A stretch of 64,000 nucleotides of DNA from Saccharopolyspora phatthalungensis. Its GTDB lineage: Bacteria; Actinomycetota; Actinomycetes; Mycobacteriales; Pseudonocardiaceae. Of the stretch, positions 15,228-42,200 are shown piece by piece. The stretch's first letter is position 1. Every line of letters begins with the position of its first letter. Made by a program: the position numbers and the translations under genes. The notes beneath the pieces are model-generated. The model saw only the letters and a program-made list of their open reading frames with translations, ran no database searches and was not told the origin of the DNA. The stretch is taken from the NCBI RefSeq assembly GCF_014203395.1, contig NZ_JACHIW010000001.1, forward strand, positions 3,827,501 to 3,891,500, in the 5' to 3' direction.

Positions 15228-18200
15228 GTGTCTGTGATGGTGCCGGAGGAGGTGAGACGGCTATTTCAGGTACTTACCGGTGAAGACATGACGGATGCGG
15301 ATGAGGATGCGTTATTCGCGGCGGCGGGGGCGTTGGAGTCGGATGCGGCGACGGTGGAGACGTTGGGCCCGGTGGTGCGGGATGTGGTGGAGCGGGTACG
15401 GGGACGGTTCTCGGGCAAGGCGGCGGACCGGTTCGCCGAACGGTTGGCGGGGTTTGGCCCGGTGCTGGAGTCCGGTGGCGCGGGGTTACGACAGTTGGCG
15501 GAGTTCGTGCGGGGTTTGGCGTTGCAGGTGCAGTATTTGAAATTGGTGACAGTGGGGGGTTTGCTCCTGCTGTTGGCGGAAATCGCGTGGGCGGTGTCGA
15601 TGGCCGGGCTCACTGGTGGGGCCAGTATGGCGTGGCTGGCGGCGCGGTTCGCGGTGATGCGGTTTCTGCTGTCGCGGTGGTGGGGGCAGCTGTTTATGCG
15701 TCTTGCGGTGGCGCAGGTGGTGGGGGTCGGGTTGCAGGTGGTGATAGATGCTGGGGCTCAGGGGTTGCAGTTCGCGTTGGGGACGCGGAAGAAGTGGGAT
15801 GCGGCGATGTCGGAGATGGCGGTGGGGGTCGGCTCCTTCAGCGCGCTGTTGGCGGTGCCATTGTCGGCGTTGGGCAATGTGGTGGGCAACGCGATCACCA
15901 AGGTCTTGGTGCGCGGTTTGGGCGATGAGATCGATGCCGAGGTGTTGACGGCGGCGGCCAAGCATGTGGCGGAGGAGCACGCGGAGCAGTACCCGGTGTC
16001 AGCGATGGCCAAGTTCGCTGATGTGGTGTCCAAGAGCTTAGATGATTACACCGGTATGTCGGTGCGGGCGATGTGGGTGGCCCGGTTCGGTCACGGCTTG
16101 GGCGAGTCCCTGGAAGAGGGCCTGACCGAAATGCTCGGCGAAGCCGGGTATGGCGCGCTGAGCGGTCAGGGGGCGCAGTGGAACCCGTTCTCGTTCACCG
16201 CCGGGTTGTCGGAGGCGGTGGGCTCGGGTATGGGGAACCTGGCGGGCCTGGCCTTGCGGGGGCAGTTGATTCCGGCGGGCCGGGCGCGGGAGAACGCCGG
16301 CGAAGAGGAGGATTCCGGCAGCGCCGACACGCCTACCGACACGGACTTCTCGGAAGAGTTGAAGACCGATTCCGGGTCGCAGACGGGCGAGAAGCCTGCC
16401 GCTACGGCACACTTCAGTGAGAAGTCCGGCTTCCCGGAGAAGATGTCCAATGTGGATTCTGAGGTGCCGGTTCCCGGATCCGAAACGGTGGACACTGGCC
16501 CGGCACCGGGTTTGGTGGGGACGGGAATTCCGGTCACCTGGTCTCTCCCGCCCGCTGGCTCCGCCCCCGGGAAAGCGGCGCCGGATGGTGTGCCCGGGGC
16601 GCGGGATCGCGGAGATGGCGTGCTGGCCGAGGATGCGGAGGGCCCGTCTTCGTCCCCGGGCGCGCCGTGGACGGGCAGCCCGGCTCATCAGACCTCGGTA
16701 CCGGATACGAGGATTGTCCCGCCCGCCGCCGGGGCCCAGCCCGCCGCCGGGGCCCAGCCCGCTGCCGGGGCCCAGCCCGGCGCGGCGGCCGGGAATGCGG
16801 GTACCGGTGCCGGCGAGTATTCCGGTGAGTCTGTGACGCCGGAGGTCACCTCGCCGGTGGCGTGGCTTGAGGATGATGCGGCGGCTCCGGGTGCGTTGTG
16901 GGGTCGGGACAATCCAGATGTACCGCCGCCGTACAGTCCGTCTCGGGATCAGGACCATGTCCGCAACGACGCAGCGGGTTCCGACACCGGGATCGGCGGC
17001 TCCCGTGCCGGAACGCCACCGCCCGCCTACAGCCCGGCTGCCGATGCTGGCCGGGCCGGTCCGGGCGGGTCGCATGTGGACGGATTCGATGACTCGGTTG
17101 GGCATTCGTCGCCGGTACCGAGGTCTGGTTCGCTCGACCAGGGTGGCTTGTCCGCCTCTGCTGGTGGGGCGCGGACCGGAGATTCCGACTCGTCGAGGCG
17201 CGACGAGAAGGCCACGCCCGCATTGTCCCATATGGACACTCCAGGTGATTACCAAAGCGGTTCGACGAGATCTGATGGTGGGGTGACGGAGGCGGATCCC
17301 TCTGTCGATTCGTCGCCGAGCGATGACCATGCCGACATCGCATCGTCTGGTGTGGACAGTCCGAGCGCTGCATTGGATGGAGAGACTAAGACAGGCGTGC
17401 CCGGCTCGGTGGCGGACAAGCCATTGACGAGCGCAACTGATGCGCCGGGTGCGTTGTCGGACGGCGTGGTTTCGGAGACTGCTTCCCCTGTGGCTGGGGT
17501 GGTTCCGGCAACTGGGGGCGGGGAGACGTTGCCGGCGCAGGGATCCGGGCAGGATGATGCGAGCGTTCCTGGTGCATTTGCGGGAGCGGATTCGGTTGTG
17601 GGGAATGGGGATGCGGCTCGTGCGCCGCAGTCGCCGGTATCGCCGGAGTCGGCTCTGCCGGACCCGTCGGGCGTGGTGTCCTCGGGTGGCCCGGTGCCGG
17701 GTGCGGGGCCGGTGGGGTTGCCTCCGGGTGCGGTGCGGGTGCAGGTGCCTGGGGATGTGGTCTCCGGCGGTGGGGTTGCGGCGTTCGTGCGCGGCCGGGT
17801 GGGGGATGCGGGTGCGGGTCCGGTGGTGTTGGTGTCTGGCGATGATTCGGGTGCCGTGGTGTTGTCGGGTCAGGCTTCCGAGGTGGCGCGGGGTGTGGGG
17901 CGTGATGTTGTTGCGTTGGTGCCGGGGCGGCGTGGTCCGCGGTGGATGCGGTTTGGTGCGGATGGGGCACGTCCCCGTCCGGTAGGCGGGTCGGGGCCGA
18001 AGCAGACCGGCGAGGTGCTGGATGTGGCGGCGAGTTCGTCGACTGCTGTCCCGAGGGGTGCGGCGGAGGCGGCGGTGCCGGGTTCGGCCGAGGAGGGGCG
18101 TGCTGAGACGGCCACGGCGACCGGCACGTCTGGTGGTTTCGCGGCGAGTTCGGCGGCGGTGGCACCGGAGAGCCAGCGGCGTGGTGTGGTGTGGTCGGCG

Positions 18201-21200
18201 GGTGAGGATGCGGTTCCCAGCGCTTCGGTGAGCCTGCGGGTGCGGGGGGCGAGGGAACGTGCCGAATACGCCGGGTGGACCCGGTCGCCGGATCATGCCG
18301 CCGCCCCGCAGGGCACTCGGCCGCTGCTGGTACTCGGGCACAACGAGAAGGCCGTTTCCGGTGATGCGCTGGCCGAGGTGCAGGGCGTCGGGGCGGATGT
18401 GTTGGCGCGGGTCGACTTTGGTCAGGGACCGACGTGGATGTTGTACGGGGCGGATGGGAGTCGGCCTCGGTTGGTCGATCCTCCTGCCGAGTTGGCGGGT
18501 CGGCCGAGGCCGGAGCCGTTGTTGTTCGGGGGGCCTGGTGATTCCGATGGGTTGATGGATCGTGCCGCGCGGCTGGCACCCGCTTTGCCGGATACCCAGG
18601 TTGTGGGTGTGCATGTGACGGCGCGGGGGAGTGCGGTACTGGCGGATGGCCGGCGGGTCGGGCCGGAGGATTTCGTGGCGGAGGTGCGGCGGGATCGGCG
18701 GTTTGTGCCGGGGCTGAAGGTGGCGTTGCTGGGGTGTGCTGCGTATCGGCGTCCGGGTCCGGGTGCGTTGTCGTTTGCCGAGCGGTTTGCTCGTGCGTTG
18801 CGCGGTTCGGCTTGGGTGGCCGATACCGACGTGGTTCAAACGGTGGACGGCGGTGTGCATGCCACCGAGGTGTCGGTGGCCTCGGATGGCAGGTTGTTGC
18901 CGAGGTTCGTGGATGGTGTGGGCACCGGTCGCTGGTCGTTGTTGGGGTCTGACGGTGAGCTGCTGGATTCCTCGGGCCCGGAATTGCGGGCGGCGGCAAG
19001 CCATGCGGTTGCGTCGCGGTATCCGGATGATGCGCGGATAGAGGCGGTCGTCCGCTGGCCCGGGCATGGGGAGCGCGAATCGGTCGACGAGCTGTTGACC
19101 AGGTGGGGATTCACGACCGCGCCCGAGGACGTGCGGAGACTGGCTGACGCGGTGGAACTGCGGTACCGGGATGGCGTGGGCGGACCAGGGTCGCGCAGTG
19201 GGGACCGGTTGCGGGGCAGGCTTTTCCTGGCTCTTGAGCTGACCGCTGAGCTGGTCGAGCGACCGGACATCGCGGATGCGCGGGATGTTCGGCTGGTGGC
19301 GGACTGGATCCGGGATGCCAGCCGGATGCAGGGGCCGACGGTGACGGCTGCGGACGTGCACAGCCTCGTGCAGGAGCTGACCGAGACAACCACGGATGTT
19401 CGCCTGCACGAAGTGCGCTACTTGGCTGGTGTTCTTAGGCAGGTTGAGCAGCGGTTGGAGTTAGGGGGCGAGCAGCGGCGGGCAACGGTGGCGGAGTTGC
19501 GGGCGCGGTGGCGGTATGGGGGCACGCGGGCCGTGACGCTGGCGATGGGAGGCCAAGCGGAGAACACCGTGGTGTATCCGGTCGACGCGGTGTCGTCCCG
19601 GTGGTGGCAACGTTTCCAGAGCGGCTTGGTGGACTTGGGCCAGGTGCGGCGGGAGATGGGGATCGCCGGAGAGCGGGATCCGGTCGTCGTCGTGGTGGAG
19701 GCGCGGCGGCGGACGGCTGGTGCGGAGAAGTCGTTCCTGATCGGTGATGCGGTTCGCGGTACGACCGCGCACCTGGAGACGCCGTGGGAGCTTGGTCAGT
19801 GGGTGGCCGGTACCGAGCAGTACCAGCGGATTGCCGTAAGCAACGAGGACGGCCCGGTCGTCTTGGTGATCCTGGGTGGTAACGCGGGACTCGGCGTGCA
19901 TTTGAGTGCCGACGAGCTCACACGGCGATTCGCCGAGGGACTCGGCGAGGGCGGGGACGGTACCCGGCAGGTTCTGCTGGCCGAGGGCTATATCTCGCAC
20001 GGTCCCTCAAGGTTCGGGTTGGTAGCCGTGGGATCACGGGCTGGTCAGACGTACGGCGGTGGGCTCGTATTGGCCTCTGGCGTGCGAGCGAGCGTGCTGG
20101 CGCTACAGCTGGACTCGGAACGGGAGAACACGATCGCCTATCCCGTGGATGCCGAGAACATGGACGAGTTCGAGCGGCTCGCCGCCTCGCGACTCGACAT
20201 GGCAACGGTTCGGGTGGCTGTTGATGCTGATTCGCCGATCTTCGTACTCGCATGGACCACCCCGGGGAGCCGGTTCGTCGTCGCCGACGCGAACACGTGG
20301 GAAACGCAGGAGGTGAATCCACGCGAGTTCGCTCGTCGGGTGGTCGAGGACGCGCGGTCCCACGGGATCGTCGGCGACGACGATCACCGTGCCGTCGTCG
20401 TCTGCACCTACTTCCGCGACGGCGTGCGAGAGATGACAGGGCGAGCCCGGCTGGAAATGGCCGAGGGCTTCCGCGCGGCGGGATATCGCGGGCCGATTCA
20501 CATGACCGCAAAGAACAGTAAGGTGGAGGGCCCCGCCTTCGATCACGACGAACCGTTCGTGATTCAGTCCTTCCACCAAGTGGTCCCGTGGTCTCCGCAA
20601 CTGCGGCTGACGATACCGGCGGGTTCAAGCGTCATCAATGCCTTCGCATATCCGCGCAACAGCGATGAGGAGGCCGCGTGGCGGCGATGGGCGGAGTCGG
20701 GGCCTGATCTGGAAGAGCTGCGGGCACAGGTGCGTGATGAGTCACCGATCCTCGTGCTGGCGTGCTGGCAGCCTGGTGAAACCATCATCCATGTCGACGC
20801 CGAAACCCGGAAAACCGAGCGGCTGCGGACCGGGGCATTCGGTCGGGTCGTGGCCGGAGCAATACGCGATACAGCGGCCTCGAATCCCGGAAATGCGGTC
20901 GTCTTGCTTGTGGTGCGGCCGGATGCCGGGGTTGCCTTGGGAGAGAACGCGTGCCAGGAATTCGCGAGCGGAGTACGCCGATACGGCCACGACGGTCCGG
21001 TTTATGTTGCTGACGTTGAGCAATACAGTGACGGCGACAATATCCGGTTCGGAGTTCAGGCGTTCACTCTAGCCGGAGGTCGTCCGCGCGCCGCTGAACT
21101 GTCGGTGCTGGATCTGTCCACTAATCAGGCGCATCGTTTGCTGGCCGCCGGAGGGACCAGCGCGGATGTCGAGTGGTGGAGGCGATGGTCGAATCGTTTC

Positions 21201-24200
21201 CGGTTGGGTAGTACGCCCCGGTTCGGGGAGCGTTCGACCACGGTTGTGCTAGCGCGGTTGTGGGGTGATGAGTTCGTCACGCCGTCGGGCACGTTGTCAG
21301 CCTTCGAATTCGGCCGCCAGCTGGCGCGCAGCGAGCCGTACGAGTCCGTGGCCTCGCGCTCAGACGCTCCTGTTCTGTTGGCGACCGTGGGAGCCGAGAC
21401 GGGGCTCAGTGAGCCTGCCGCGCAGGAGTTCGCCCGTGGCGTGCGAAGCAACGACGTGGATCGCATGGTCCTGGTCACGGACCGGGATTTCCGGTTGGGG
21501 CGCGATCCGGGGGGAGTGGCCGTTCTCCCGCTCGACTTGAATCCCCCGAGGTTCGTGCCGCCGCCGGACTTCTCGCCGGCGACCGCCGTGATCCGCACCG
21601 CGGACGACGACTTCGGGCCGGTGGTGTCGTATTCGCCCCACCGGCGGCGAAACGTGGATACGGACTGGATCGCTTCGGAGGTTGGCCACCGGAAGCCATT
21701 CGTTGTGGTGGTGTCGTCGGAGCACGGACGGTTCCCCGTGTTTGATCCGGATTGGAAGGCAAGGGTTCTCGGGCCTTCGGACTTCGGTACGCGGGTGCTC
21801 AGAGGTGCGGAGTTCCAGCAGTTCGTCGGTGACGATCCGCTCCGCCCGGTTGTGGTGTTGTTCGAAACGTGGCCGTCCGGCTTGACCGAACGGGACGCGC
21901 GGTCGTTGGCGGAGGGATTGCGCAGCGACGGCGTCCAGCGGCCGGTTTTCTTGTCTATGGGCGAGCTCAAGTCCGACTGGAGAGGCTTGTCGCGGGCGCA
22001 CGCGCTGGTCGAGGCCCCGTCGGCGCAGTCGGCGCTGCTCACCCATCCCGCCAGTGCTGTCGAGGCGCGGCAACCGTCGTTGGTCGCCTGCGTGGACAGG
22101 GTGTATGAGGATGTTGTCGGACAGCTTCGTTCGTACGGGCTTTCCCGGTTATTGTCCGAGTTGGGGTATCGCGATCCCCAGCCGCCGGTTGTGGTCCTGG
22201 CCTTCGTGGAGTTCGATAAGTTCCTTTCGCCAGACGGCGCCAAGAGATTAGCCCCTGGAAACTTTGCCTCTCTACTGGCGCGCAACCCGGACTACCTTGA
22301 CGCGACCCGAGGGGACTGGCGGCGGCCCGTCGTGATCGTGACATTCGGGCCGGGGCACAACCCCGATGCGGTGCCGGATCTCGTTTCCTTCGCCGCCCAA
22401 CTACTAGGCACATCCGATGCTGACCGGCCCGTCTACATCACAGAAAACAACATTTCGCAGTTAAGGCTCAAGTCGCCGGAACGCGGGAGCGCCGTGTCGG
22501 GCGGGCTGAGCCAGTTGACGCCCGGCGCAATGCTGTCTCCCCCTCCGAAGGAGGAACTGCTGAGCGAGGAGTTCCGGGTCGGCATTGGTCCGGAGTCGGC
22601 CAGTAACGCCGTGAGCTTCCCGCCGCAACCAGACGTCCCCTACTGGCAGGCATGGGGCTCGTTGGATTACCCCGGATACGGGCCCATGCTGCGGCGCGCG
22701 GTGGCCGAGTTCGATCCGGACCCGCTGTTCGTCTTTGTGTACGTGCAGGATGGAAAAATATTAGTTCGCAACGGAAATAGTGCGATTGTTTCACCGGAAC
22801 CGGTAGTCCTGGGCATGAACATGCAGCATTCCCGGGATTTCCAGAACGCGGATCGCGGGCAACTCGGGCGCACGGTGGTGCTCGTGGCGATGTCGAGAAA
22901 TGGTGCGCCGCTTCCGGACTGGTACGCCAGAGCACTCGCCGAGGGGTTGCGTCGAGTTGGTGGGCCGCCGCGACCCGTGTTCGTCTACGACGGATACCAC
23001 CAAGAGGCGTTCCACACCGATATGGTGTTGGACCGGTTGCGGAGCGTGACCCCGGAGGCGCATTGGCGGCGGGCTGGGGATGTTCCTGACGTGGAGCATC
23101 CTGGGGAACTCGTGCCGCGCTATGAGCCGGATCTGCCGCCGAGTTATGCGAGCGCCGGGGAGGTCGCCGCCGCGGTTGCGGCGGTCGACAGGCAGCGCGC
23201 GGCGGGTGGGTCCGATGCCGGCCGGCCCGCCCGACCTGGTGAGCTCTCGGAGATCGAGATCGCGAACGTGGCTCGGCGGTGGAGCGGGGAGTTCGAGGAA
23301 GCCGAGCGGGTGTTGAGCGCGCTTCCGGCCGATTGGGTGGCGGATCTGCAGGCGCGGGCCAGGACGATCCTGGACAGTGTGTGGGAGCGTCCGAGGGAGC
23401 GTGATTCGTCCTCGGCGATGGCCGTGCAGGGCTTGTGGGATCGGATGGCGCAGCGGGTCGCGTTCCGGTTGCATGGCGATGGCCGGTCGGAATCGGGTGC
23501 CTGGGCGGATGCCGCGGCGATGGTGGCAACTATTCCGTTCTTGCCCGTGGTGCTGGCGGCGCGTGGGTCGGAGGAGTCATTTACCTACCCGGGATGGACG
23601 AGGTCGCCGGGGTTCGCTGAGGCTTCCCCGGAGCGCGGCCGGTTGTTTGTGCTGGGCAGTGACGGCGTTGTGGTGTCTGGTGAGCTGGTGGCCGAGATGC
23701 GGCGGCCGGGCGTGGATGTGCTGGCGCGGACGGACACCGACGATGGTCCACAGTGGATGCTGTTCCGGTCGGACGGGAGTGAGCCGTTACCGGTGGAGCC
23801 GGCGGCGGAGGTGACGCGGTTTGTGCGTGCGGAGCCGTTGATGTTCTTCGGTGCTGGTGAGGATGAGGCGGCGGTTGAGGCGGCGGCGTTGGCTGCGGAT
23901 GTGCCGGGTGTGCAGGTGGTGGGTCTGCATGTGACGCCCGAGGGGGGTGCGCGGTGGCCGGATGGGGAGTTGGGGCCGGAGGAGTCGGCGGAGCGGGTAT
24001 GGCGGGATAGGCGTTTTGTTGCGGGGATGCCGGTGGCGTTGTTCGGGTGTGGTGCGGGGCGGCAACCGGGGTCGGGTGAGGCGTCATTCGCGCAGCGGTT
24101 TGCGGCGGGGGTGGGGGCGCATGTGTGGGTGACGGATTCCAGTGGCGTGTGGCAGACGCGTGATGGTGCGGTGCATGCCACGGAGTCGGTGGTGTCCGGA

Positions 24201-27200
24201 GATGGGCGGATGCGGCCGGTGTTCGTTAATGGCATGGGTACTGGTCGGTGGTCTTTCCTGAGCCCTGATGGGCGGGAGTTGTTCTCGGGTGGTCCGGAGT
24301 TGCGGGCGGCGCTGGCCGGTGCGGTTCCGCCGCGCTATGCGGAGGGGGCGAGTCCGGAGCCGCTGATCAGGTGGGCGGACAATGCTGACGCTGAGGGTGG
24401 TGCCGGACGGCCGGTCGATGACTTGTTGCGGGAATGGTGGGCCGCGGGTGAGCCTGAGGATGGTGAGCCGGCCGCTAGGCGGAGGTTGCCCGATGAGGAT
24501 GTGCTGAGGCTGGCAGATGCGGTGAAGTTGCGTTATCGGGGTGCGGTGGGGCAGCGGCCGGGGACGCGTAGTTGGGAGCGGTTGCGGGGCAGACTTGTTC
24601 ATGTTCTTGAGCTGACCGAGCAGTTGGGCGGGCAACCGACCGTCGCGGATGCGCGGGATGTTCGGTTGGTGGCGGACTGGATTCGGGATACCGGTCGGAT
24701 GCAGGGGCCGATGGTGACGGCTGCGGATGTGCACGGCGTCGTGCAGGAGCTGACCGACGATCCCAAGGACGTTCGTTTCCACGAAGCCCGCTACCTGGCC
24801 GGCGTTCTCCGCGATCAGGGCATGGAAGGAAGGCGTCAACGGCAGGCCAGCGTGGCCGAGTTGCGGGCGCAGTGGCGGCGTGGGGCCACGCAAGCCGTGA
24901 CTCTGCGGATGGGTGGGCACGCCGAGAACACCGTGGCGTATCCGGTCAGCATGGCGTCGTCGCGGTGGTGGCGGGATTTTCACGGTGGCCGGGTGGATCT
25001 GGATCGGGTGCGGCGGGAGATGGGGATCGCCGGTGACCGGGATCCGGTCGTCGTCGTGGTGGAGGCGCGGCGGCGGACGGCTGGTGCGGAGAAGTCGTTC
25101 CTGATCGGTGATGCCGTTCGCGGTACGACCGCGCACCTGGAGACGCCGTGGGAGCTTGGTCAGTGGGTGGCCGGTACCGAGCAGTACCAGCGGATTGCCG
25201 GAAGCAACCGGGATGGTCCGGTCGTCTTGGTGGTCACGGGTGGCAACGCGGGGCTCGGGGTGCATCTGAGTCGTGACGAGCTCACGCGGCGATTCGCCGA
25301 GGGGCTTACCGCGGGTGGGGACGGCAGCCGGCAGGTTCTGCTGGCGGAGGGCTATATCTCGCAGGATCCTTCCGGGTTCGGGTTGATCGCGATGGGCTCA
25401 GGGACTGGTCGTGCGCGGGATGCGGGGCTGATGCTGCCCTCGGGAGTGCGAGCGAGCGTGCTGGCGTTGCGGCTGGACTCCGAGCGGGAGAATGCGATCG
25501 TCTATCCCGTGGATGCCGCGAACAAACAGCAATTACTTTCAGCGGCGGACGAGGGCCTGGCGCGCGGGTTTAATGACGCTGATTCGCGGATCTTCGTGGT
25601 CGCATGGATCACACCGTGGGGCGGGTTTACCGTCGCTGACGAGAACACGTGGGAAACGCAGGATCTCACCCCACGTGAGTTCGTTCGCCGGGTGGTCGAG
25701 GATGCACGATCCCACGGGATCGCCGGGCATGACGAGGACCGCGTGGTCGTGGTGCGCCCTTGCGTCAGTACGCGTGAGCAACTGCTGCCGGCGCGGGCCC
25801 GGCAGGAGCTGGCCGAGAGCTTCCGCGAGGCGGGATATCGCGGGACGATTCAGGTGGCCGGATGGAACCCCGCGACGAACAGCACCAGCTACGACCTCGT
25901 GACCCCGTGGTCGCCGCGATTGCGGCTGACAATCGCGGCGGGCTCAGGCGTTCTCGACGTGGTTGCGTACCCGCGCAACAGTATTGAGGAAAAGGCGTGG
26001 AGGCGGTGGGCGGCGTCGGGGCCGAACCTGGATGCGCTGCGGGCGCAGGTGCGTGATGAGTCACCAATCCTCGTGCTGACGCGCCAGCGGACTGATGAGA
26101 CTTTCTTCTACGTCGACCCCGAAACCCGGGCCACCGGGCACCTCTCCGCCGGGGCGTTCGGCCGGATCGTGGCTGGAGAAGTGGCCGAGATAACGGCCTC
26201 GAATCCCGGCAAAGCCGTCGTCATCCTTACCGTGCCGCCGGAATTTGGGGTTGCGCCAAGCGAACAGGCACGTCAGCAGCTCGCAAGCGGGGTGCGCCGA
26301 TATGGCCACGAAGGGCCGGTTTATGTTGCTCCCGTTGCGGAATACCGGGGTGTCTCGTTAGCGATAGGGGACATCACTCTCGCCGGAGGACGTCCGCGCC
26401 CCGCCGAACTGTCGGTGCGGGAGCTGAGTTTCTCCAGCCCATCGCATCGCTTGCTGGCAGCCGGTGGAACCTCGGTGGATGTGGATTGGTGGCGCCACTG
26501 GGCGTCGGAAGGTTTCCGGGTGACAGCCGCCCAACGGTTCGGGCTGCGCTGGACGACCGTTGTGCTCGCCCGGTTGTGGGGTGATGAGTTCGTCACGCCG
26601 TCGGGCACCCTGTCGGCCTTCGAATTCGGCCACCAGCTGGCGCGCAGCTCGACTTACGAATTCTCGGGCCTGCGCCCAGACCCTTGTGTCGTGTTGGCGA
26701 CCGTGGGAGCCGAGACTGGGCTCAGCGAGGAAGCCGCGCGTGAGTTCGCCCGTGGCGTGTGGAGCAACGACCCGGATCGTGCGGTACTCGTGACGGATCG
26801 GGATTTCAGATTGCGGCGAGATGCGGACGACGTCGCCGTTCTTCACTTCGGGACGGACCGCCCGAGGTTCGTGCCCCCGCACAACTGGTCCCCGGTGACT
26901 GAGTTGAGCCGACCCGGGGACGATGACTTCGGGCCGGTGGTGTGGTATCCGGCTCGGTCAGGAACCGAGTCCGAGTTTACTGTGGACACCGACTGGGTTG
27001 TCGCGGAGACCGGCCACCGGAAGCCTTTCGTTGTGGTTGCGCAGGCGGCACAGGGACGCTTCCACGTGCTGGATCCGACTGGTCAGACGAGGGTACTGGG
27101 GCCTTCGGACTTCGGTACGAGCGTGCTCAGAAGTGCGGCGTTCCAGCAGCTCGTCAACGACGATCGAGCTCGTCCGGTTGCCGTGGTGTTCCGCAACTGG

Positions 27201-30200
27201 CCGTCCGGTTTGACCGAGCGGGACGCGCGGTCGTTGGCGGAGGGGCTGCGCGGCGACGGGGTCCAGCGGCCGGTTTTCCTGTCGATGGGTGAGTTTGTGG
27301 AATACGAGAGCGGGTGGGGGTCTTATGCCTTGGTTGCGGCGCCGTCCGCGCAATCAGCGTTTTCCGCCCATCCGGCTGGTTCTATCGAAGCCCAGCGTCC
27401 CTTGCACATATCCTATGTGGACAGAGATCACGAGGAGATCCATGAACGGCTTCGTTCGTTCGGGATTTCCCGGCTGTTGTCAGAGCTGGGGTATCGCGGC
27501 TCCCCACAGCCGATTGTCGTCACCGTGAGCGCGAATTACCCTGGCTTATTAGCACCGTTCGGCGAAAGCTCAATGTCGGCTGCGCGCTTTGGTGAATTTC
27601 TGGGTCGAGACCGGAATTACCTTGAGGCGATACGAGGTGACTGGCGGCGGCCGGTCGTGATCGTCCCGCTAGGGAATCCGCCCCACGTTACCGAGGCAAA
27701 TCTCATTCCGTTCTTGACGCGGCTGCTGGGCACCCTCGACGCTGATCGGCCCGTCTACATCTCCCAAGAGAACATTCCGGTGGGCAGACTGGCCACGCTG
27801 GGAGACGGGCGCGTCGTGTCGGCCGGTCTGAGACTGTTGACGCCCGACCGAATGCAGCCTCCCCGTATGCAGGAGGAACTGGACTCCGAGACACTGCATG
27901 TCGGCGTTGGCACGGCGTGGGACCTCAATGCCGTGGGTTTCCCGCTGGAGCCGGCAGACCTGGAAGCCTGGCAAAGATGGGGCTCGTTGGATTACGACGG
28001 GCACGGGCCCATGCTGCGACGCGCGATGGGTGAGTTCGATCCGGACCCGATGTTCGTTTTTGTGAAAGTGTCGGGCGGAAACATCGAAGTAGTGCACAAG
28101 CGAGATGACGAGTCGGACCCGGACCCGGACCCGGAGTCGGAGTCGGGGTCCGATCCCGGGTCTGAGCGGGAGCGCCGGCGGGAAGCATTGGATCCTGTCG
28201 AGCTGGGCACGCTCATCCACCGTTCCCCGCATTTCCAGGACCTTGCCTACCCGTATTCCGCATTTGCGGATCCCGGGCAACTGGGGCGAACGGTTGTGGT
28301 CGTGCCGGCATCGGACGATGGTGAGCGGCTTCCGGACTGGTATGCCAGGGCATTTGCCGAAGGGTTGCGTCGAGTCGGCGGGCCGCCGCGACCCGTGTTC
28401 GTCTACGACGGCTACTACCACGAGGCTTTCGACACCGATACTGTGCTGGATCGGTTGCGGAGCGTGACACCTGAGTTGCATTGGCGACGGGGTTGGGGAG
28501 CTCGTGACGCCGAGGAGCCCCGGGAATTGGTCCCGGGTTATGAGCGGGATTTGCCGCCGGACTATGCGAATGCCGGCGAGGTCGCGTCGGCGGTCGCGAC
28601 CATCGACAGGCAGCGTTCGGCAATCGTGTCCGGTGTTGCGCGGCCTGCCGAGGTCGCGGAGACCGAGGTCGCGAGTGTGTATCAGCGGTGGAACGGGGAT
28701 TTCCAGGAAGCAGAACGTGCGCTGAGCGCCCTTCCGGCCGATTGGGTGGCGGATCTGCACGCGCGGGCCAGGACGATCCTCGAAAGCATGTGGGAACGCC
28801 CGAGGCAGGGAGATACGTCATCGGCGATGGCCGTGCAGGACCTGTGGGACCGGATGGCGCAGCGGGTCGCGTTCCGGCTCTACGGCGGCGGCCGGTCGGA
28901 AACGGCCGCCTGGGCAGATGCCGCGTCCATGGTGGCAACCGTTCCGTATTTGCCTGTCGTGCTTGCGGTGCGGGGATCGGATGAGTCGGTGGCCTATCCG
29001 GTGTGGACGAGATCGCCCGGGTTTGCGGAGGTCTTGCCGGACCGGAGCGGATTGCTGGTCTTGGGCAATGAGCGCCTGGTGGTGCCTGAAGAGCCGGTGG
29101 CCGAGGCGCTGCGCTCGGGTGTGGATGTGCTGGCGCGGACCGACACCGAAGATGGTCCACAGTGGATGTTGTTCCGGGCGGATGGGAGTACACCGCTCCG
29201 GGTGGAGCCGTCGGCGGAGGTGGCGCGCTGGGCGAGTCCGGCGCCGTTGATGTTCTTTGCCGATGGTGAGGGCGGGGTGGCGGTTGAGGCGGCGGTGTTG
29301 GCGTCGGGCTTGCCGGGTGTGCAGGTGGTGGGTGTGCATGTGACGCCCGAGGGGGGTGCGCGGTGGCCGGATGGTGAGTTGGGTCCGGAGGAATCGGCGG
29401 AGCGGGTGTGGCGAGACCGGCGCTACGTCACGGGGCTGCCGGTGGCGTTGTTCGCATGCGGTGCCGGACGGCGACCTGAGCCGGGCGAGTCGTCGTTCGC
29501 GCAGCGGTTCGCGACAAGGCTGCGGGCGCAGGTGTGGACGGCGGATGCCAGCGACGTGTGGCAGACCAGGGATAGCGCGGTACACGCCACGGATTCGGCA
29601 GTGTCCGGTGATGGTCGGATGCTGCCGGTGTTCGTCGACGGCCAGGGAACCGGCCATTGGTCGCTGCTGAGCCCCGACGGGCATGTGGTGTTCTCGCGTG
29701 GTCCGGAGCTGCGTGCGGCGCTGACCGACTCGCCCTCGCCGCGCTATGCGGCGGGAGCGGGTCCAGAGCCGCTGATCAGGTGGGCGGAGGACGGCGATGC
29801 CGCGTCCACCGCTGCGGATGAGGATGGTGTGACGGGTTCGGCCGAGGAGCTGTTGAGCAGGTGGTGGTCCGCGACTGGGCATGAGGATGTCGGCGCGCGG
29901 AGCTTGGCTGATGAGGATGTGCGGAGGTTGGCCGATGCGGTGGAACTGCGTTACCGGGGTGGCGTGGATGAGCCGGGTACGCATAGCGGGAAGCGGTTGC
30001 GGGGCAGGCTTGTTCAGGTCCTTGAGTTGACCGAAGGGTGGGGCGGCCAACCGTCGATCGCGGATGCGCGGGATGTTCGGCTTGTGGCCGACTGGATTCG
30101 GGATGCCGGTCGGATGGCGGGGCCGACTGTCACCGCAGCGGACGTGCACGGCCTCGTGCAGGAGCTCACCGAGAGCACGACGAATGTTCGCCTGCACGAG

Positions 30201-33200
30201 GTGCGCTTCTTGGCTGGTGTTGTGCAGCGGGTAGAGCAGGGGCTGGAACAAGGGGGCGAGCAGCGGCGGGCGACAGAGACAGAGCTACAGGCCCAGTGGC
30301 GTCGTGAGGCCACGCGGGCTGTGACGCTGCGGATGGGGGGTCAAACCGAGAACACTGTGGTGTACCCGGTGGACGAGGCATCGTCGCGGTGGTGGCAGAG
30401 CTTTTACGGCGGCCGGGTGGATATGAGCCAGGTGCGACGGGCGATGGGGATCGCCGATGATCGGGACCCGGTCGTCGTTGTGGTGGAGGCGCGGCGGCGG
30501 ACGGCTGGTGCGGAGAAGTCGTTCCTGATCGGTGATGCGGTTCGCGGTACGAGCGTGCATCTGGAGACGCCGAAGGAGCTGGGGCGGCGGGTGGCCGGCA
30601 CCGAGCAGTATCGGCGGGTTGCCGGAAACCACGAGGACGGCCCGATCGTCTTGGTGGTTTTGGGCGGTAACGCCGGACTCGGGGTGCATCTAAGCCGCGA
30701 CGAGCTCACGCACCGATTCGCCGAGGGGCTCAGTTCGGGCATGGACGATGTCCGGCAGGTGCTTCTGGCGGAGGGCTACATCTCGCATGAACCTTCCGGG
30801 CTCGGGTTGGTCGCCGTGGAGCCACGGACCGCCGGCCGGCCGGACGCGGGGCTGGTGCTGCTGTCGGGCGTGCGACCGAGGGTGCTGGCGCTGCGGCTGG
30901 ATTCCGTCCAAGAGAACACCATCGGCTATCCCGTTGATGTCGCGAGTTTCACCGAGTTGGCGCGGCTGGCCGGTTCGGATTCGCTGGATATGGGCTCGGT
31001 GCGGGAGGCCGTTGACGCTGCTTCGCCGATCTTCGTGCTGACATGGACCACCCGGAGAGGCGGGTTCACCTTCGCTGACGCGGATACGTGGGAGACCGAG
31101 GAGATCAGGCCATGGGAGTTCGCCCGTCGGGTGGTCGGGGATCTGCGATCCCACGGAATCGCGGGACCAGACGATGACCGCGCAATCGTCGTCTGCACCG
31201 CCAGCGAGGGTTGGCCAGCGCTGACGCAGTGGGAGTTGCGGGAGCTGGCCGAAAGCTTCCGCGAGGCGGGGCATCGCGGGCCGATTCACGTGACCGAACG
31301 GGGCACCGTCCTCTACGACCCGAACCTTTCTCCCGAAGACGCACTGAGGAACCGGACCTTCGAACGCGTGGTCCCGTGGTCGCCGCGATTGCGGATGGCG
31401 ATACCGGCGGGCTCACACCTGATCGACGCGGTCGCCTTTCCGCGCGACAGTGTTGAGGAGGCGGATTGGCGGCGGTGGGCGGAGTCCGCGCCCGACCTGG
31501 ACGGGCTGCTGGAAGAGGTGCGTGATGAATCGCCGATCCTGGTGCTGGCGTGCTGGCGGCCTAACGAAGCTTTTGTCTACGTCGAGCCCGGAACCTGGGA
31601 CACCAGGTACCGGAGCGCCGGAAAATTCGGTCGGCTAGTGGCCGGAGAAATCCGCGAGATAACGGCCTCGGATCCCGGCAGGACCGTCGTCGTGTTCGCG
31701 GTGCTGCCGGACGATGCCTGGGGTGTCCTGGGCGTGCAGGCACGCCAAGAACTCGCGAGCGGCGTACGCCGATATGGCCACGGCGGGCCGGTTTATGTCG
31801 CTACCGTTGAGGAATACCATGAGGGCGGCAGCATTCGGTTTGCACCGTGGGACATGATTCTCGCCGGAGGTCGTCCGCGCGCCGCCGAACTAAGGGTGCA
31901 AGACCTGACCTCCACACCGTCGCATCGTTTGCTGGCGGCCGGCGGAACCTCGGCGGACGTGGATTGGTGGAGCCGGTGGTCGTCGGATGGCGTCCGGCTG
32001 AGCGGCGTGGAACGGTTCGGATTGCGTTCGGCGACCGTCGTGCTCGCCCGGTTGTGGGGCGATGAGTTCGTCACGCCCTCGGGCACCGTGTCGGCTTTCG
32101 AATTCGGTCGCCAGGTCGCGGGTAGCGCGCTGTACCAGACCTCGATCGCCGTGGATCCGGATGCTCCGGTGCTGCTGGCGACGGTGGGAGCCGAGGCCGG
32201 GCTCAGCGAGCAGGCCGCGCATGAATTCGCCCGTGGCGTGCGGGTCAACAACCCGGATCATGCGGTCCTGGTCACCGACCGGGACTTCCGATTGCAGCGC
32301 GATGCGGACAATGCGGCCGTTCTCCACTTCGGCGCAGATCCCCCGAGGTTCGTGCCACCGCGCAACTGGTCGCCGGTGGCGGGGCTGAGCCGGCCCGCGG
32401 ACGACGACTGCGGGCCGGTGCTGATGCATCCGTCCAACCCCGGACCGGTGCCGCCGCTTACCATCAACACGGACTGGATCATTTCGGAGATCGGCCACCG
32501 AAACCCAGTCGTTGTGGTGGCACCGCCGGTGCGCGGACGTTTCCACCTGGTCGACCCGTTGACCGACGAGACGAGGGTTCTCGGGCCTTCGGACTTCGGC
32601 ACGAGCGTGGTCAGCAACCCGGATTTCCAGGAGTCCGGAGGCGGTGATCCGGCCCGCCCGGTTGTGGTGCTGTTCGCAATATGGCCCTCCGGCCTGACCG
32701 AGCAGGACGCGCGGTCATTGGCGGCGGGTTTGCGCAGCGACGGGATCCAACGGCCCGTTTACCTGTCGATGGGCAATTTCGACCGGCTTCCGTCCGGGTG
32801 GCGGTCGTACGCCCTGATCGAGGCGCCGTCAGCGCAGTCGGCACTGCTCACACATCCGGCCGGTCCCGTCGATGCGCAGCGGCCGTTGCTCATTTCCTTC
32901 CTGGGCAGTGACCACGCGGATGTTGCGGACCAGCTTCGGTCGTACGGAGTTTCCCGGCTGTTGTCGGAACTGGGATATCGCGGCATCCAACAGCCGATCG
33001 TCGTCCTCGCGAGCAGGACGGGCGATTACTTCATCGCCCCAGGCAGGAGAAGGACAATACGCCCAGAAAAACTGGGCTTCAGACTGGCGCACGACCTGAA
33101 ATACCTTGAGGCGACCCGAGGGGACTGGCGGCGTCCGGTCGTGATCGTCCCAGTAGTGGGCCCGCACGAGCTCGATGAGGCGATGGACCTCACCGCTTTC

Positions 33201-36200
33201 ACGGCAAAACTGCTGGGCACCCCCGACGCCGACCGGCCCGTCTACCTCTCGGCAGCCAACATCCCGGCAGACAGGCTCGCCATGCCGGGAGAAGGGCCTG
33301 TCGTGGTGCCCGGCCTGAGATTGTTGACGCCCGAACGAATGCAACTTCCCCTGCCGCAGGAGGAATTGGCGGCCCAGACCTTGTGGGTCGGCATTCCCCC
33401 AGGGGGGACGGACAATGCCGTAGGTTTCCCGGTGGAGCCGGATGACGAGGAAGCCTGGGTGGCATGGGGCTCGTCGGACGATGACGGCAACGGGGCCATG
33501 CTGCTACAAGCGGTAGGTGAGTTCGATCCGGATCCGGCCTTCGTTCTTGTGCGAATGCGGGACGAAGAAATCGTAGTGCGCGAGCAAGATGGCGAGGTTG
33601 AGTCACCGGAACCTGTTGCGCTGGGCGTCCGCATTCAGCAGCGTTGCCTGGATTTCCAGTTTGTAGATGGAATTGTGCTTGGGCGGACGGTGGTGATCGT
33701 GCCGATGTCGGAGGACGGTACGTCACTGCCGGATTGGTATGCCAGAGCACTCGCCGAAGGCTTGCGGCGAGTTGGTGGGCCGCCGCAACCCGTGTTCGTC
33801 TACGACGGCTACCACGACGTGATTCTCGACTCCGATGACGTGTTGGACCGGCTGCGAAGCGTGACGCCGGAGTTGTACTGGCGGCGGGCAGGTGAGGTCC
33901 GTGACGTGGAGGAGCCTAGGGATGTCGTTCCGCGTTATGAGCGGGATTTGCCGCCGAGGTATGAGAGTGCTGGGGAGGTGGCGTCTGCGGTCGCGTTGGT
34001 TGACCGGCAGCGTGCGATGGCGTTGTCCGATCGGCCCGTCCGGCCTGGTGAGGTTGCGGAGTCCGAGGTGGCGACGCTGTTTCAGCGGTGGTATGGGGAG
34101 TTTCGGGAGGCTGAGCGTGCGTTGAGTGTGCTTCCGGCTGGTTGGGTGGCGGATTTGCAGGCGCGGGCGAGGGCGGTGTTGGGCAGTGTGTGGGAGCGTC
34201 CGAGGCAGGGTGATTCGTCTTCGGCGATGGCGGTGCAGGGCTTGTGGGACCGGATGGCGGAGCGGGTCGCCTTCCGGTTGTTTGTCGGGGCGGAGACGGG
34301 TGCGTGGGCGGATGCCGCGGCGATGGTGGCAACCGTTCCGTCCTTGCCTGTCGTGCTGGCCTTCCGGGGGTCGGATGAGTCCGTTGTCTATCCAGAGTGG
34401 ACCAGATCACCGGGGTTCGCGGAAGTTTCCCCAGATCTGGGGAAGTTGTTGGTGCTGGGCAGTAACCGGGTGACGGTGCGTGCTGAGTCGGTGGCTGAGG
34501 CGCTGCGGTCGGGTGTGGATGTGCTAGCGCGGATGGAAACCCAGGATGGTCCACAGTGGATGTTGTGGCGGTCGGACGGTAGTGGGCCGCTGCCGGTGGA
34601 GCCGTCGGCGGCGGTGGCGCGGTTGGCCAGTCCGCAGCCGCTGATGTTCTTCGGCCCCGGTGATGGTGCGGTGGCGGTTGAGGCGCTGGCGTTGGCCTCG
34701 GACCTGCCGGATGTGCAGGTCGTGGGCGTGCACGTGACGTCGCACGGGCGTGCGCGGTGGCCGGACGGACAGGCCGGGCCGGAGGAATCCGCCGAGCGGG
34801 TGTGGCGAGACCGGCGCTACGTCACGGGGTTGCCGGTGGCGCTGTTCGGCTGCGGTGCCGGACGGCAACCGGGGTCGGGTGAGCCGTCGTTCGCGCAGCG
34901 GTTCGCGACAAGGCTGCGGGCGCATGTGTGGATGACGGATGCAAGTGGCGTGTGGCAGACCCGTGATGGTGCGGTGCACGCCACGGAGTCGGTGGTCTCC
35001 GGTGATGGGCGGATGCTGCCGGTGTTCGTTGACGGCGAGGGGACCGGCCGGTGGTCGTTGCTGGGTCCTGATGGGCGGGAGTTGTCCTCGGGTGGTCCGG
35101 AGTTGCGGGCGGCGTTGTCCGGTGCGGTTGCGCCGCGCTATGCGGAGCACGCGAGCCCGGAGCCGGTGATCAGGTGGGCAGACGATGCTGCCGCTGAGGG
35201 TGGTGTGAGACGGCCGGTCGATGAACTGTTGCGGGAATGGTGGGTCGCGGGTGAGCACGAGGATGGCGGGCCGGCCGCTAGGCGGAGGCTGGCCGACGAG
35301 GATGTGTTGAGGCTGGCGGATGCGGTGGAGTTGCGTTATCGGGAGGGGGTGAGTCAGCGGCCGGGTACGCGTAGCTGGGAGCGGTTGCGGGGCAGGCTCG
35401 TTCATGTTCTTCGGTTGACCGAGGGGTTGGGTGGGCGACCGGTTCTCGCGGAGGCGCTGGATGTCCGGTTCGTGGCGGACTGGATTCGGGATGTCGGCCG
35501 GATGCAGGGGCCAACGGTGACCGCTGCGGACGTGCACAGCTTGATACACGACGTGACTGAGAGCACCGCGAATACTCGCCCGCATGAAGTGCGTTATTTG
35601 ACCGGTGTTCTGAAGCGGGTTGAACAGGCACTGGAACAGCGGGGTGAGCAGCGACGAGCGACGGTGGCGGAGGCGCGGGCGCAATGGCGGCGGCAGGCCA
35701 CGCGGGCTGTGACGCTGCGGATGGGCGGACAGGCCGAGAACACCGTGGTGTACCCGGTCAGCATGGAGTCATCGCAGTGGTGGCGAATTTTCCACGGCGG
35801 CCGGGTGGAGCTGGATCGAGTGCGGCGGGAGATGGGGATCGCCGGTGGCCGGGAGCCGGTCGTCATCGTGGTGGAGGCGAGGCGACGGACGGCCGGTGCG
35901 GAGAAGTCGTTCCTGATCAGTGATGAGATTCGCGGCACGACCGCGTACCTGGATACACCGCGGGAGCTTGGTCAGCGGGTGGCCGATACCGAGCAGTATC
36001 GGCGGGTTGCCGGTAACAACCAGGACGGCCCGGTCGTCTTGGTCGTCCTCGGTGGCAACGCCGGACTTGGGGCCCATCTGAGTCCTGACGACCTCACTCA
36101 GGGGTTCGCCGAGGGGCTTGGTGCGGGCGGGGACGGTGCCCGGCAGGTGCTTCTGGCGGAGGGCTATATCTCGCATGACCCTTCGGGGTTCGGGTTGGTC

Positions 36201-39200
36201 GCCGTGGGGCCACGCACCGCTGGCCGGCAGGATGCGGGGCTCGTGCTCCCGTCGGGCGTGCGGCCGAGTGTGCTGGTGCTGCGGGTCGGCTCCGCAGAGG
36301 AGAACACGCTTGCCTATCCCATTGACGCCGAGAACAGGAGCGAACTCTTAGCCGGTTCGGTGCGGTGGGAGGTGGGTCCTGGCGCGCCGATCTCCGTGCT
36401 GGTATGGGCAGCCCCGGGAGGCAGGTTCACTGTCGCCGACGGGGATACGTGGGAAACGCGGGAGGTAAGCCCCCGTGAGTTCGCTCGTCAGGTCGTCGAG
36501 GATGCGCGATCCCACGGGATTGCCGGGGCGGACGATGAGCGCGCATTCGTTGTCTACGCATATTTCAGCACGCGAGAAGAAGCGCTGCGAGAGCGGGCCC
36601 GGCAGGAGCTGGCCGAGGGTCTCCGCGAGGCGGGACATCGCGGGCCGGTTCTGGTGACCACCTGGAAACGCGCGACGGATCCCCCCAACCCCACTCGCGT
36701 GGTCCCGTGGTCGCCGCGATTGCGGCTGGCGATACCGGCGGACTCGGGCGTGATCGACGCGGTCGCATATCCGCGAAACAGCGATGAGGAGGCCGTCTGG
36801 CGACGATGGGCAGAGTCGGGGCCTGACCTGCGCTGGCTGCTGGACGAGGTGCGTGATGACTCGCCTGTCCTCGTTCTCGCGCACCGGGAGCCTAATGAAC
36901 GCTTCGCCTACGTTGAGCCCGCAACCCGGCACTCCGCGCGCCTGACCGTCGGGGCATTCGGCCGAGAAGTGGCTGGAGCGTTGGGCGAGCTAGCGGCCCC
37001 GAATCCCGGCAGGACCGTCCTCGTGATCGCTGTGCAGCCGGATCACTGGGCTGCTATGGGAGAACAGGAGGCCCAGGAGCTCGCGAGCGGAGTACGTCGG
37101 CATGGCCATGACGGGCCGGTTCATGTTGTCAGTGTTGTGCAACGCGAAGAAGGCGAGAGCATCCGGTTTGAAAAACAGGATCTCATTCTCGCCGGCGGAC
37201 GTCCGCGTGCCACTGCACTGTCGGTGCGGGAGCTGACCTCTAACCAGCAGTATCGTTTGCTGGCGGCCGGTGGAACCTCGGCGGATGTGGACTGGTGGAG
37301 CCGGTGGTCGTCGGGTGGTCTCCAGTTGGAGAATGCGCATGGGCGCGAGTTGATGCCGACGACCGTCGTGCTCGCCCGGTTGTGGGGAGACGAGTTCGTC
37401 ACACCGGCGGGCACCGTATCGGCTTTCGAATTGGGTCGCCAGGTAGCGGGCAGCGTGCCGTACCGGACCACGGTCTCTCGGCCTCCGGAGGTTCCGGTGC
37501 TGTTGGCGACAGTGGGAGCCGAGACCGGGCTCAGCGAGAAAGCCGCGCGCGAGTTTGCCAGTGGCGTGTGGATCAACGATCCGGACCGCGCCGTTCTGGT
37601 CACGGAACGGGATTTCCGGTTGCGGCGCAGCGCGAACGGCGTGGCCGTTCTCGGCCTCGATATTTATCCCCCGAGGTTCGTGCCACCGCAGTCCTGGTCT
37701 CCGCTGGCCGAGCGGGTTCAACCCGCGGACGACAACGTCGGTCCAGTCGTTACGTATCTGTCCTTTCCAGAACCGGTGCCGTGGCTTACCGTGGAAACGG
37801 GCTGGATTGCTTCGGAGTACCGATACGCCGAATCGGGGCCACCACTGCTGGACAAGGGCTGGATTTCTTCCGAGACCGGCCACCGGAGGCCATTCGTTGT
37901 GGTGGCCAGGTCAATGCGCGGACGCTTTCACCTGGTTGATCCGATGGTTGGCGAGACGCGAGTTCTCGGGCCTTCGGAATTTGGTACGAGGGTGGTCAGT
38001 AACCCGGAATTCCGCCAGTTCGCCGGCGGCGATCAGGCTCGTCCGGTTGTGGTGATGTTCGATCAGTGGCCGTCTGGTTTGACCGAGCGGGACGCACGGT
38101 CGTTGGCGAAGGGATTGCGCAGCGACGGTGTCCAGCGGCCGGTTTTCCTGTCGATGGGCGAGTTCGCCGAGCGCGAGGCCGGATGGCGGTCGCACGCCCT
38201 GGTTGAGGCGCCGTCCGCGCAGTCGGCGCTGCTCGCGCATCCGGCGAGTGCTGCCGGCGCGCAGCGGCCGCTGGTCATTTCCTTTGCCGACAATCCCGCC
38301 CACAGGGATGTGCTTGACCAGATTCGTTCGTTCGGGATTTCCCGGCTGGTTTCGGAGCTGGGTTATCGCGGCCCCCAACAGCCGATCGTCGTCCTTGCGA
38401 GCAGAGGTTTCAATGGTTTCATCTCCCCCGGCGGGGAAAGGGAACTGTCCCCTGGCGAGTTTGGCGAGCTTCTGGCGGGAGACCCGCAATACCTTGAGGC
38501 AACCCGAGGAGACTGGCGGCGGCCGGTGGTGATCATCGTAGTAGCAGGGCCGTTCGACTCCCCTGCGCCGCAGGACCTCACGCGCTTCACGTCACGACTG
38601 CTGGGCACCCCCGACGCTGACCGGCCCGTCTACATCTCGGCAGACAACATTTTGGAAGACAGCCTCGCCATGCTGACCGGCGGGAGCGTTGCGGCGCCCG
38701 GCCTGAGACTGCTGACGCCCGACCGGATGCAGCCTCCCCCAATGCAGGAGCGTTTGCAGTCCGGCACCTTGCGTGTTGGCGAGGACCCGGCGCTCAACGC
38801 CGTGGGTTTCCCGTTGGAGCCGCAAGACATGGCGGCCTGGGCAAGATGGGGCTCGTTGGATTTCCACGGGCACGGGCCCATGCTGCGGCGCGCGGTGGGT
38901 GAGTTCGATCCGGACCCGCTGTTCGTCTTCGTGAAAGTGTCCGGCGGCAGCATTGAAGTAGTGCGCCTCCGGGATGACGAGTCTGATGTCGAGTCTGAGC
39001 ATGAGCATGAGCGTGAGTCACCGGATCCTGTCGAGCTGGGCATGCACATTCAGCACTCCCCGCATTTCCAGGATCTTGAGTACCCGTCTTCCGATTTCGC
39101 GGATGCCGGACAGCTCGGGCGAACCGTGATAATCGTGCCGGAGTCGGAGGATGAAGCGCCGCTTCCGGACTGGTATGCCAGGGCGCTTGCCGAAGGGTTG

Positions 39201-42200
39201 CGTCGAGTTGGTGGGCCGCCGCGCCCCGTGTACGTCTACGACGGTTACCAGGACGAGGCCGTCGATACCGATGACGTGCTGGATCGGTTGCGGAGTGTGA
39301 CGCCGGAGTTGCACTGGCGGCGGGCCGGGGCGGTTCGTGATCCGGAGGATCCTCGCGAGCTTGTGCCGCGCTATGAGCGGGATTTGCCCCCGGGTTATGC
39401 GAGTGCCGGGGAGGTGGCGTCGGCGGTCGCGGCGGTCGACAGGCAGCGTGCGGTGGCCCTGTCCGGTGCTGCCCGCCCGGCTCGGCCCGCTGAGGTGGCG
39501 CAAACCGAGATCGTGAGTGTGTACCGGCGGTGGAGCGGCGGGTTCCAGGAGTCCGAGCGGGTGCTGAGCACCCTTCCGGCTGATTGGGTGGCGGATCTGC
39601 AGGCGCGGGCCAGGACGATCCTCGGAAGTCTGTGGGAACGCCCGAGGCTGGGTGATACGCCATCGGCGATGGCTATGCAGGGCTTGTGGGACCAGATGGC
39701 GCAGCGGGTCGCTTTCCGGTTGTCCCGTGGTGGGCTGGAGACGGGTGCGTGGGCGGAGGCTGCGGTGCTGGCGGCGAGTGTTCCGGCTTTGCCTGTGGTG
39801 TTGGCGGTGCGGGGGTCGGATGAATCGGTGACGTATGCGGAGTGGACGAGGTCGCCGGGGTTCGCGGCAGGTTCCCCGGATAGGGGGCGGTTGCTGGTCC
39901 TGGGCCATGACCGCATGACGATGAGTCGTGATTGGGTTGTCTGGACGCTGCGGTTGGGTGTGGATGTGCTGGCGCGGGCGGAAATCCAAAATGATCCACA
40001 GTGGATTTTGTTCCGCTCGGGCGGGCGTGGGCCGTTGCTGGTGGCGCCACCGGCGGCAGTGGCGCGGTTGGCGAGTCCGGCGCCGTTGATGTTCTTTGGT
40101 CCCGATGAGAGTGGGCCGGCGGTTGAGGCGGTGGCGTTGGCTGCGGATGTGCCGGGTGTGCAGGTGGTGGGTCTGCACGTGACGCCGCAGGGGGCTGCGC
40201 GGTGGCCGGATCGGGAGGTGGGGCCGGAGGAGTCTGCGGACCGGGTGTGGCGCGACAGACGCTTCGTGGTGGGGATACCGGTGGCGTTGTTCGGATGTGG
40301 TGCGGGGCGGCAACCGGGGTCGGGTGAGGTGTCGTTCGCGCAGCGGTTCGCGACGAGGCTGCGGGTGCACGTGTGGACGGCTGGTGCCGGCGATGTGTGG
40401 CAGACCCGTGATGGGGCGGTGCATGCCACGGAGTCGGTGGTGTCGGGTGATGGGCGGATGCTGCCGGTGTTCGTTGACGGTGTGGGTACTGGTCGGTGGT
40501 CGTTGCTGGGTCCTGATGGGCGGGAGTTGCTCTCGCGTGGTCCGGAGTTGCGGGCGGCGCTGACCGGTGCGGTTGCGCCGCGCTATGCGGAGGGAGAGGG
40601 TCCAGAACCGTTGATCAGGTGGGCGGACGACGGCGATGCCGCGCCCACCGCGGTGGATGAGGGTGGGTGGTTCGATGAGCTGCTGAGCGAGTGGTGGGCC
40701 CAGCCCAGGGACGAGGATGGGTGGTTCGATGAGCTGCTGAGCGAGTGGTGGGACGAGGATGGGGAGTTATCCGTTATTCGGGGGCTGGCTTATGCGGATG
40801 TGCGAGTCTTGGCCTCCGCGATTGCACTGCGTTACCGAGGTGAGCCGGGTATGCGCCGTGGGGAGTGGTTGCGGGGCAGGCTTGTTCAGGTTCTCCGGCT
40901 GACCGAGGAGTTGGGTGGGCGACCGGACGTCGCGGAGGCGTTGGATGTCCGGTTTGTGGCGGACTGGATTCGGGATGTCGGTCGGATGCAGGGGCCTACG
41001 GTGTCCGCTGCGGATGTGCACAGTCTGGTGCAGGAGCTGACTGACGCCCCGCAGAACGTTCGTCTCCGTGAAGTGCGTTTCTTGGCGGGTGTGCTGAACC
41101 GGGTGGAGCAGGATTTGAAACAGGGGGGCGAACTGCGGCGGGCGACGGTGGCGGAGGTGCGGTTGCAGTGGCGGCGGCGGGCTACGCGGGCTGTGACGTT
41201 GCGGATGGGGGGCCAGGCCGAGAACACCGTGGTGTACTCGGTCGACGAGGCGTCGTCGCGGTGGTGGAAGTTTTTCCACGGTGGCCGGGTGGATCTGGGC
41301 CGGGTGCGGCGGGAAATGGGGATTGCCGGTGATCGGGATCCGGTCGTGGTTGTGGTGGAGGCGCGGCGGCGGACGTCTGGCGCGGAGAAGTCGTTCTTGA
41401 TCGGTGATGCGGTTCGCGGTACGACCGAACACCTCGACACGCCTTGGGAACTGGGGCGGCGGGTGGCCGACACCGAGCAGTACCGGCGGGTCGCCGAGAC
41501 CAACGCGGATGGCCCGGTCATCTTGGTTGTCCTGGGCGGCAACGCCGGACTCGGAGCGCACCTGAGCCGCGACGAGCTCATTCAGCGATTCGCGGCGGGA
41601 CTCGGTGCGGCTGGAGGCGGTGTCCGGCAGGTCCTTCTGGCGGAAGGGTACATTTCGCACAATCCTTCCGGATTCGGGTTGGTCGCCGTGGGGTCACGGG
41701 CTGGTGGCCGGCAGGGGGCGGGGCTGCTGCTGCCCTCGGGCCTGCGAGCGAGCGTGCTGGCGGTGCCGGAGGGCGGTGCCACGCCGGAGAGCACGATCGC
41801 TTATCCCATTGACGCCACTGAATTGGGCCGATATCAGGAGTTGGTCGACTCCCGTTCGCCGGTGCCGGGGGAGCCGGGGGTTGGCCCTGATTCGCCGATC
41901 GTCGTGTTGGTATCGACTGCCTCGTCCAGCAGGTTCCTCGTCGCCGACGGGGACACCTGGGAAACGCAGGAGGTGACCCCGCGCGAGTTAGCCCGCCGGG
42001 TGATCGAGGATGCGCGATCCCACGGGATCATCGGGCATGACCGCGAAGTTAACGTCCATTGTGGGCGAAGGCTGACCGACCAGGCCCGGCAGGAACTGGG
42101 CGAGGGCTTCCGCGACGCTGGGCATCGCGGGCCGGTTTACGTGGTCCTACTGGATCAGCGAGACAACGCCATCTTCTATCCTGCGGCCCCGTGGTCGCCC

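Follow-up and report, generated by a model that had tools for sequence, protein, structure and literature searches.

The window analysed here, 64,000 nucleotides of the Saccharopolyspora phatthalungensis genome (8.54 Mb), contained, among other genes, a plus-strand open reading frame (ORF; 15228-56162) encoding a giant protein of 13,644 aa and seven modules. This protein is probably the carrier of a polymorphic toxin exported by a type VII secretion system (T7SS): each module would contribute one protease domain with a His-Cys pair (the “Cys domain”) and seven dead copies of the same fold (the “sub-repeats”), and the chain would cut itself after export. The computational evidence supporting this reading comprised the fold, the homology of the copies, the retention or loss of His and Cys, an export-type N-terminus, an immunity gene and the toxins of related proteins; catalysis by the dyad, cutting in cis, the place of the cut and its trigger are the parts that we infer.

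The Cys domain and the sub-repeats

Each module was ordered as a His/Cys domain unit, a linker, seven sub-repeats (154-210 aa) and a second linker; the modules were 1,769-1,858 aa long and 61-84% identical to one another. An earlier note, made from the sequence alone, had described one such unit at 23541..28949, a few bases off module 2 (23535..28943, aa 2770-4572), and had proposed one possible protease followed by seven inactive copies in each module. This plan held along the whole protein: a profile built from the 49 sub-repeats of the window gave 49 matches in the giant ORF, seven in each of the seven modules, and every module had one apparently active domain. In total there were 56 domains of one predicted fold, 7 with the His-Cys pair and 49 without, in a strict 1+7 register.

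The motifs quoted earlier for the Cys domain were found in the sequence, as was the distance of exactly 40 residues from His2901 to Cys2941 in module 2 (23826..24347 for the modelled piece, aa 2867-3040). Modules 3-7 had the same spacing as module 2, and in module 1 it was one residue longer (41; His1129 and Cys1170). In modules 6 and 7 the segment made of the Cys strand and the next helix was duplicated, with the second Cys segment 31 residues on; a similar duplication of the Cys segment was seen in a paralogue (L083).

Conservation of the His across homologues, on which the caspase-like proposal had been made to depend, was complete (43/43 non-redundant relatives), and so was that of the Cys (43/43). 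These relatives were obtained from 136 matches, of which 17 were removed (His or Cys column gapped, or fewer than 60 columns covered) and the other 119 thinned to below 80% identity. Their mean pairwise identity was 36%, and one further column, an Ala, was as conserved as the His and Cys. Nine more ORFs of the same genome (1,354-9,136 aa) carried the Cys domain. Both residues were present in 26 of 30 matches in own-genome loci that take in much, not all, of the paralogues, including 3 first parts of duplicated copies; of the remaining four, 3 were the second parts of duplicated segments and 1 (L087/1876) was a degenerate copy with the His position gapped and D in the Cys position. An R near the Cys position was noticed by eye in L132. 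In those pieces of the window that were scanned, the Cys domain had no match to any Pfam, NCBIfam or PADLOC model; “lonely Cys”, the term first applied to it, is presumably an NCBI protein name.

These data bear on an improbable alternative, that the giant protein acts as an extended scaffold or an adhesin-like stalk whose dyad serves other chemistry or structure, with no cutting. Such a role would suit a long regular array with no toxin tip, in which 7/8 of the domains lack the His-Cys pair, but His and Cys were retained among relatives of 36% identity, and many of these lacked sub-repeat matches in the stretches examined.

The suspected kinship of the sub-repeats with the Cys domain was borne out by hhalign with deep profiles (probability 82-92%, score 35-43, 25 comparisons). 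The reversed-profile controls reached at most 0.23% and 11.6, so the likeness goes beyond chance; with seven-sequence profiles the match of the Cys unit to the sub-repeats was not significant. As expected of pseudoenzymes, all 49 sub-repeats lacked the His-Cys pair, and the model of sub-repeat r5 of module 2 (26892..27377) also agreed, with weak scores. In module 2 the Cys was replaced by T in r1 (VVTGGNAG) and by V in r4 (ATVGAETG), matching the motifs quoted beforehand; in 4 of the 49 sub-repeats a Cys stood one column ahead of the aligned Cys column. Sequence comparison and predicted structure together support the view that the sub-repeats share the Cys-domain fold and have lost its His-Cys pair.

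The remaining features of the giant ORF were also on the plus strand. In module 2, the linker from the Cys domain to the sub-repeats (24408..24869) had no significant similarity to the sub-repeats and was followed by r1, a putative pseudoprotease (24870..25448), r2 (25449..25922), r3 (25923..26402), r4 (26403..26891) and, beyond r5, r6 (27378..27863) and r7 (27864..28493). A linker of low complexity with many Ser, Gly, Pro and Ala residues (16245..18227, boundaries set by eye) preceded module 1 (18228..23534, aa 1001-2769, start set by hand), whose Cys domain lay at 18600..18956. Module 3 (28944..34337), module 4 (34338..39782) and module 5 (39783..45143) had their Cys domains at 29325-29681, 34719-35075 and 40164-40520 respectively; in module 6 (45144..50585) and module 7 (50586..56159) these domains, with the internal 31-residue duplication, were at 45528-45977 and 50970-51419. 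The ORF ended just past the linker after r7 of module 7, with no toxin tip.

Predicted fold and relation to clan CD proteases

The strand order of the Cys-domain model was b1-aA-b2(His)-hairpin-aB-b3(Cys)-aC-b4, with His2901 and Cys2941 at the ends of strands b2 and b3. This is the order of clan CD, in whose folds b2 and b3 are adjacent. The caspase-like topology suggested earlier was supported by the predicted structure, whose top structural matches were C80 protease domains, and C80 headed the structural-match list of the sub-repeat model too. Among the VIA rows obtained with the Cys domain, numbers 1-29 were, apart from Tce1, proteins which we take to be members of clan CD; Tce1, a Pseudomonas aeruginosa type VI secretion system protein in complex with Hcp3 (9qpe), is known here from its entry title alone. 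The absence of a fold from the structural-match list was not counted as evidence.

Peptidase C80 (PF11713), the processing domain of MARTX and clostridial glucosylating toxins, is activated by inositol hexakisphosphate and cuts after Leu. The likeness to it consisted of the best structural matches of both models and of a His then a Cys at strand ends; the differences were the many domain copies per giant protein and the sequence searches, in which PF11713 found nothing in the genome of the window at E<=10, the N-terminal region and the first two modules gave no C80 match with Pfam, and no protease was matched among solved structures. Of the features of C80 peptidases, the Cys domain thus had the fold, as modelled, and the His-Cys dyad, as judged by its conservation in 43/43 relatives, but not the PF11713 match.

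The Z and Foldseek E-values of the structural matches were middling, with nitrilase-type amidases and other folds lower in the lists. Together with the lack of a sequence match to C80, this would agree with a resemblance due only to a common alpha/beta arrangement, the Cys domain belonging to no protease clan, but that explanation is highly improbable: clan CD proteins filled the rows mentioned above, C80 was first for the sub-repeat as well, and the His-Cys pair lies where clan CD has it. The Cys-domain profile also reached a CHAT protein (L101) by sequence (E 7.6e-6), over the Cys part only and not the His. The domain differs from CHAT (PF12770), TPR-CHAT and Csx29 in its partner domains, and no Pfam CHAT match was obtained at E<=1 from the scanned parts of the window. 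The models support a clan CD cysteine protease-like domain with a C80-like fold, not a C80 member by Pfam, and its His-Cys dyad would be catalytic.

Type VII secretion context and toxin tips of relatives

The giant protein began with a WXG100_2-like domain (15240..15653, plus strand, aa 5-142; PF25547, E 7.7e-10, over cut-off), and an Imm1 immunity-protein gene (56994..57422, plus strand; PF14430, E 2.2e-12) followed about 830 bp 3' of the giant ORF. It therefore had two features of T7SS polymorphic toxins, a WXG100-type N-terminus and an adjoining immunity gene, and lacked the third, a variable C-terminal toxin domain. No remnant of module or paralogue frames was found by tblastn in the 1.9 kb after the giant ORF (56163-58100); as a control, a slice containing the end of the ORF gave 27 rows. 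Export by a T7SS is likely, because the genome had two EccCa genes over cut-off and because EccC was encoded about 10 and 7 kb away from related giants with WXG100_2 N-termini in two other genomes (G277 and G566). In another genus (G012), one open frame contained the Cys domain and seven sub-repeats; about 10 kb away an AAA protein was encoded whose score exceeds the EccA cut-off but is higher for SpoVK.

In relatives, the Cys domain was followed by other domains or was itself terminal. At least 296 residues lay C-terminal to it in 28/28 named loci, and 17 of these 28 stretches were scanned against Pfam. Seven of the 17 had matches over cut-off: ADP-ribosyltransferase (L042 and L050), Scabin-like (L046), GT4-conflict (L053), RelA/SpoT (L054), phosphotransferase (L056) and folate enzyme (L062). 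Five others (L040, L044, L051, L052 and L055) had weak ADP-ribosyltransferase or deaminase matches below cut-off, and the remaining five of the 17 gave no toxin-like Pfam match. Among three whole relatives, L035 had an ADP-ribosyltransferase, L028 a nuclease domain and L033 neither. In the own-genome paralogue L084, an N-terminus of WXG type resembling that of the giant ORF was followed by one Cys domain, then by seven sub-repeats and another Cys domain, and the protein ended in a Scabin-like tip. The C-terminal part of another paralogue (L085, 16106-18025) appeared amidoligase-like by eye, with no Pfam match, and in L089 (1827-5888, minus strand) the Cys domain was in frame with alpha/beta hydrolase (TAP-like) sequence, either a fusion or a decayed paralogue.

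The Cys domain itself was C-terminal in L067, L068 (with WXG100_2), L125 and L126-L128 (frames of about 300 aa). L125 is a Rhodococcus plasmid protein separated by two genes from an FtsK/SpoIIIE-type gene; in L067 (1-1806) the domain formed a MuF-like fusion with a phage minor capsid protein (PF06152). In E. coli the domain lay a short way downstream of RHS core sequence. A query spanning both was covered to at least 80% in 364 of 5,426 genomes, and among the matches listed two records covered the whole of it, naming an RHS protein and a sel1-repeat protein. In the E. coli stretch L123 the domain sat in its own 131-aa frame, not joined to the core, so that a clear RHS tip is not supported there.

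The C-terminal copies and the E. coli records named above speak for an alternative that we consider unlikely, in which the Cys domain is an effector protease acting on proteins of the target cell, delivered in seven copies, with self-cleavage secondary or absent. It would also fit the absence of any other toxin in the giant protein, and Zhang et al. (2012, PMC3482391) propose a toxin role for C-terminal caspase-like copies and polymorphic-toxin processing for others. Against it, the domain was internal in the window and in all the named loci, seven tandem effector copies would be unusual, and the E. coli domain was not shown to be an RHS tip. The sequence context as a whole points to a type VII polymorphic toxin, because of the WXG100_2 N-terminus, the Imm1 gene downstream and the relatives with the Cys domain before variable toxins or as C-terminal tip.

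The Cys domain was found in 6/396 genomes of the phylum sample, an underestimate because only 11 candidates per genome were scored, and in 10/101 genomes of the order (a count including the CHAT protein, in G619) and 9/148 of the class; the own genome was included in each sample. The sub-repeat profile matched 11/150 genomes of the family, own included, and several of these matches were weak. The open frames concerned reached 16,768 aa; the longest (G054, contig 4 near 6294751), which exceeds the length of the giant protein, had a weak sub-repeat match (E 6.8e-8). In the plasmid collection nothing was found with the Cys domain of the window as query, and 8 records with its relative L039; the tip of L067 gave nothing in the phage collection.

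Other genes of the window included one for a DUF4407 protein directly upstream of the giant gene (13411-14853), one for a protein with a weak NACHT match and TPR repeats but no PADLOC match (8282-12724, minus strand), and, at the window edge (10-2069), a stretch encoding a LanC-like and a lantibiotic dehydratase C-terminal domain, which may belong to a lanthipeptide cluster. PADLOC gave no match for three window proteins.

Proposed working and comparison with known systems

In the reading that we favor, the giant protein would be exported by the T7SS, after which the one potentially active clan CD cysteine-protease domain of each module would cut its own chain, releasing the modules and, in paralogues having one, the C-terminal toxin. 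The dead copies would form a structural body or a peptide-binding array. Given the missing toxin tip, the giant protein may be a carrier that is truncated or simply tip-less; alternatively, its protease may be the effector. A further possibility, which appears rather unlikely, is a self-cutting polyprotein delivered in a single export event: each active domain would excise the module to which it belongs (about 1,800 residues), and the seven dead copies per module, more than a spacer, would hold the cleaved peptides or regulate the live protease, making the whole a protease-pseudoprotease machine.

Domains of this kind, Tox-Caspase and caspase-like peptidases of polymorphic toxins with His and Cys, are described by Zhang et al. 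(2012, PMC3482391) as internal, upstream of variable toxins, or C-terminal, in T7SS (WXG), RHS and Caudovirales contexts, and as repeat arrays in which some copies lack the catalytic residues, for example in a Streptomyces flavogriseus protein. The protein of the window resembles them in its His and Cys within a caspase-like alpha/beta fold, as modelled, and in the array with dead copies, and its family in the internal or C-terminal placement and the T7SS, RHS and phage contexts; the position upstream of a C-terminal toxin, or at the C-terminus, was found in relatives and not in the giant protein. It differs, as far as that description goes, in its 49 inactive and 7 apparently active domains, strict 1+7 order, length of 13,644 aa and lack of a tip. 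Since arrays with inactive copies had been described in that account, the giant protein fits a known kind of toxin outlined in 2012, as an unusually large and regular version, to which predicted structures and domain counts are added here.

These results offer a predicted structural basis for two proposals of the 2012 account: that polymorphic toxins are processed by caspase-like domains, and that arrays include some dead copies. They also extend the pattern to a single protein with 56 domains of one predicted fold in strict register, one eighth of them bearing the catalytic pair, a system in which the role of pseudoproteases in bacterial toxins would be directly testable.

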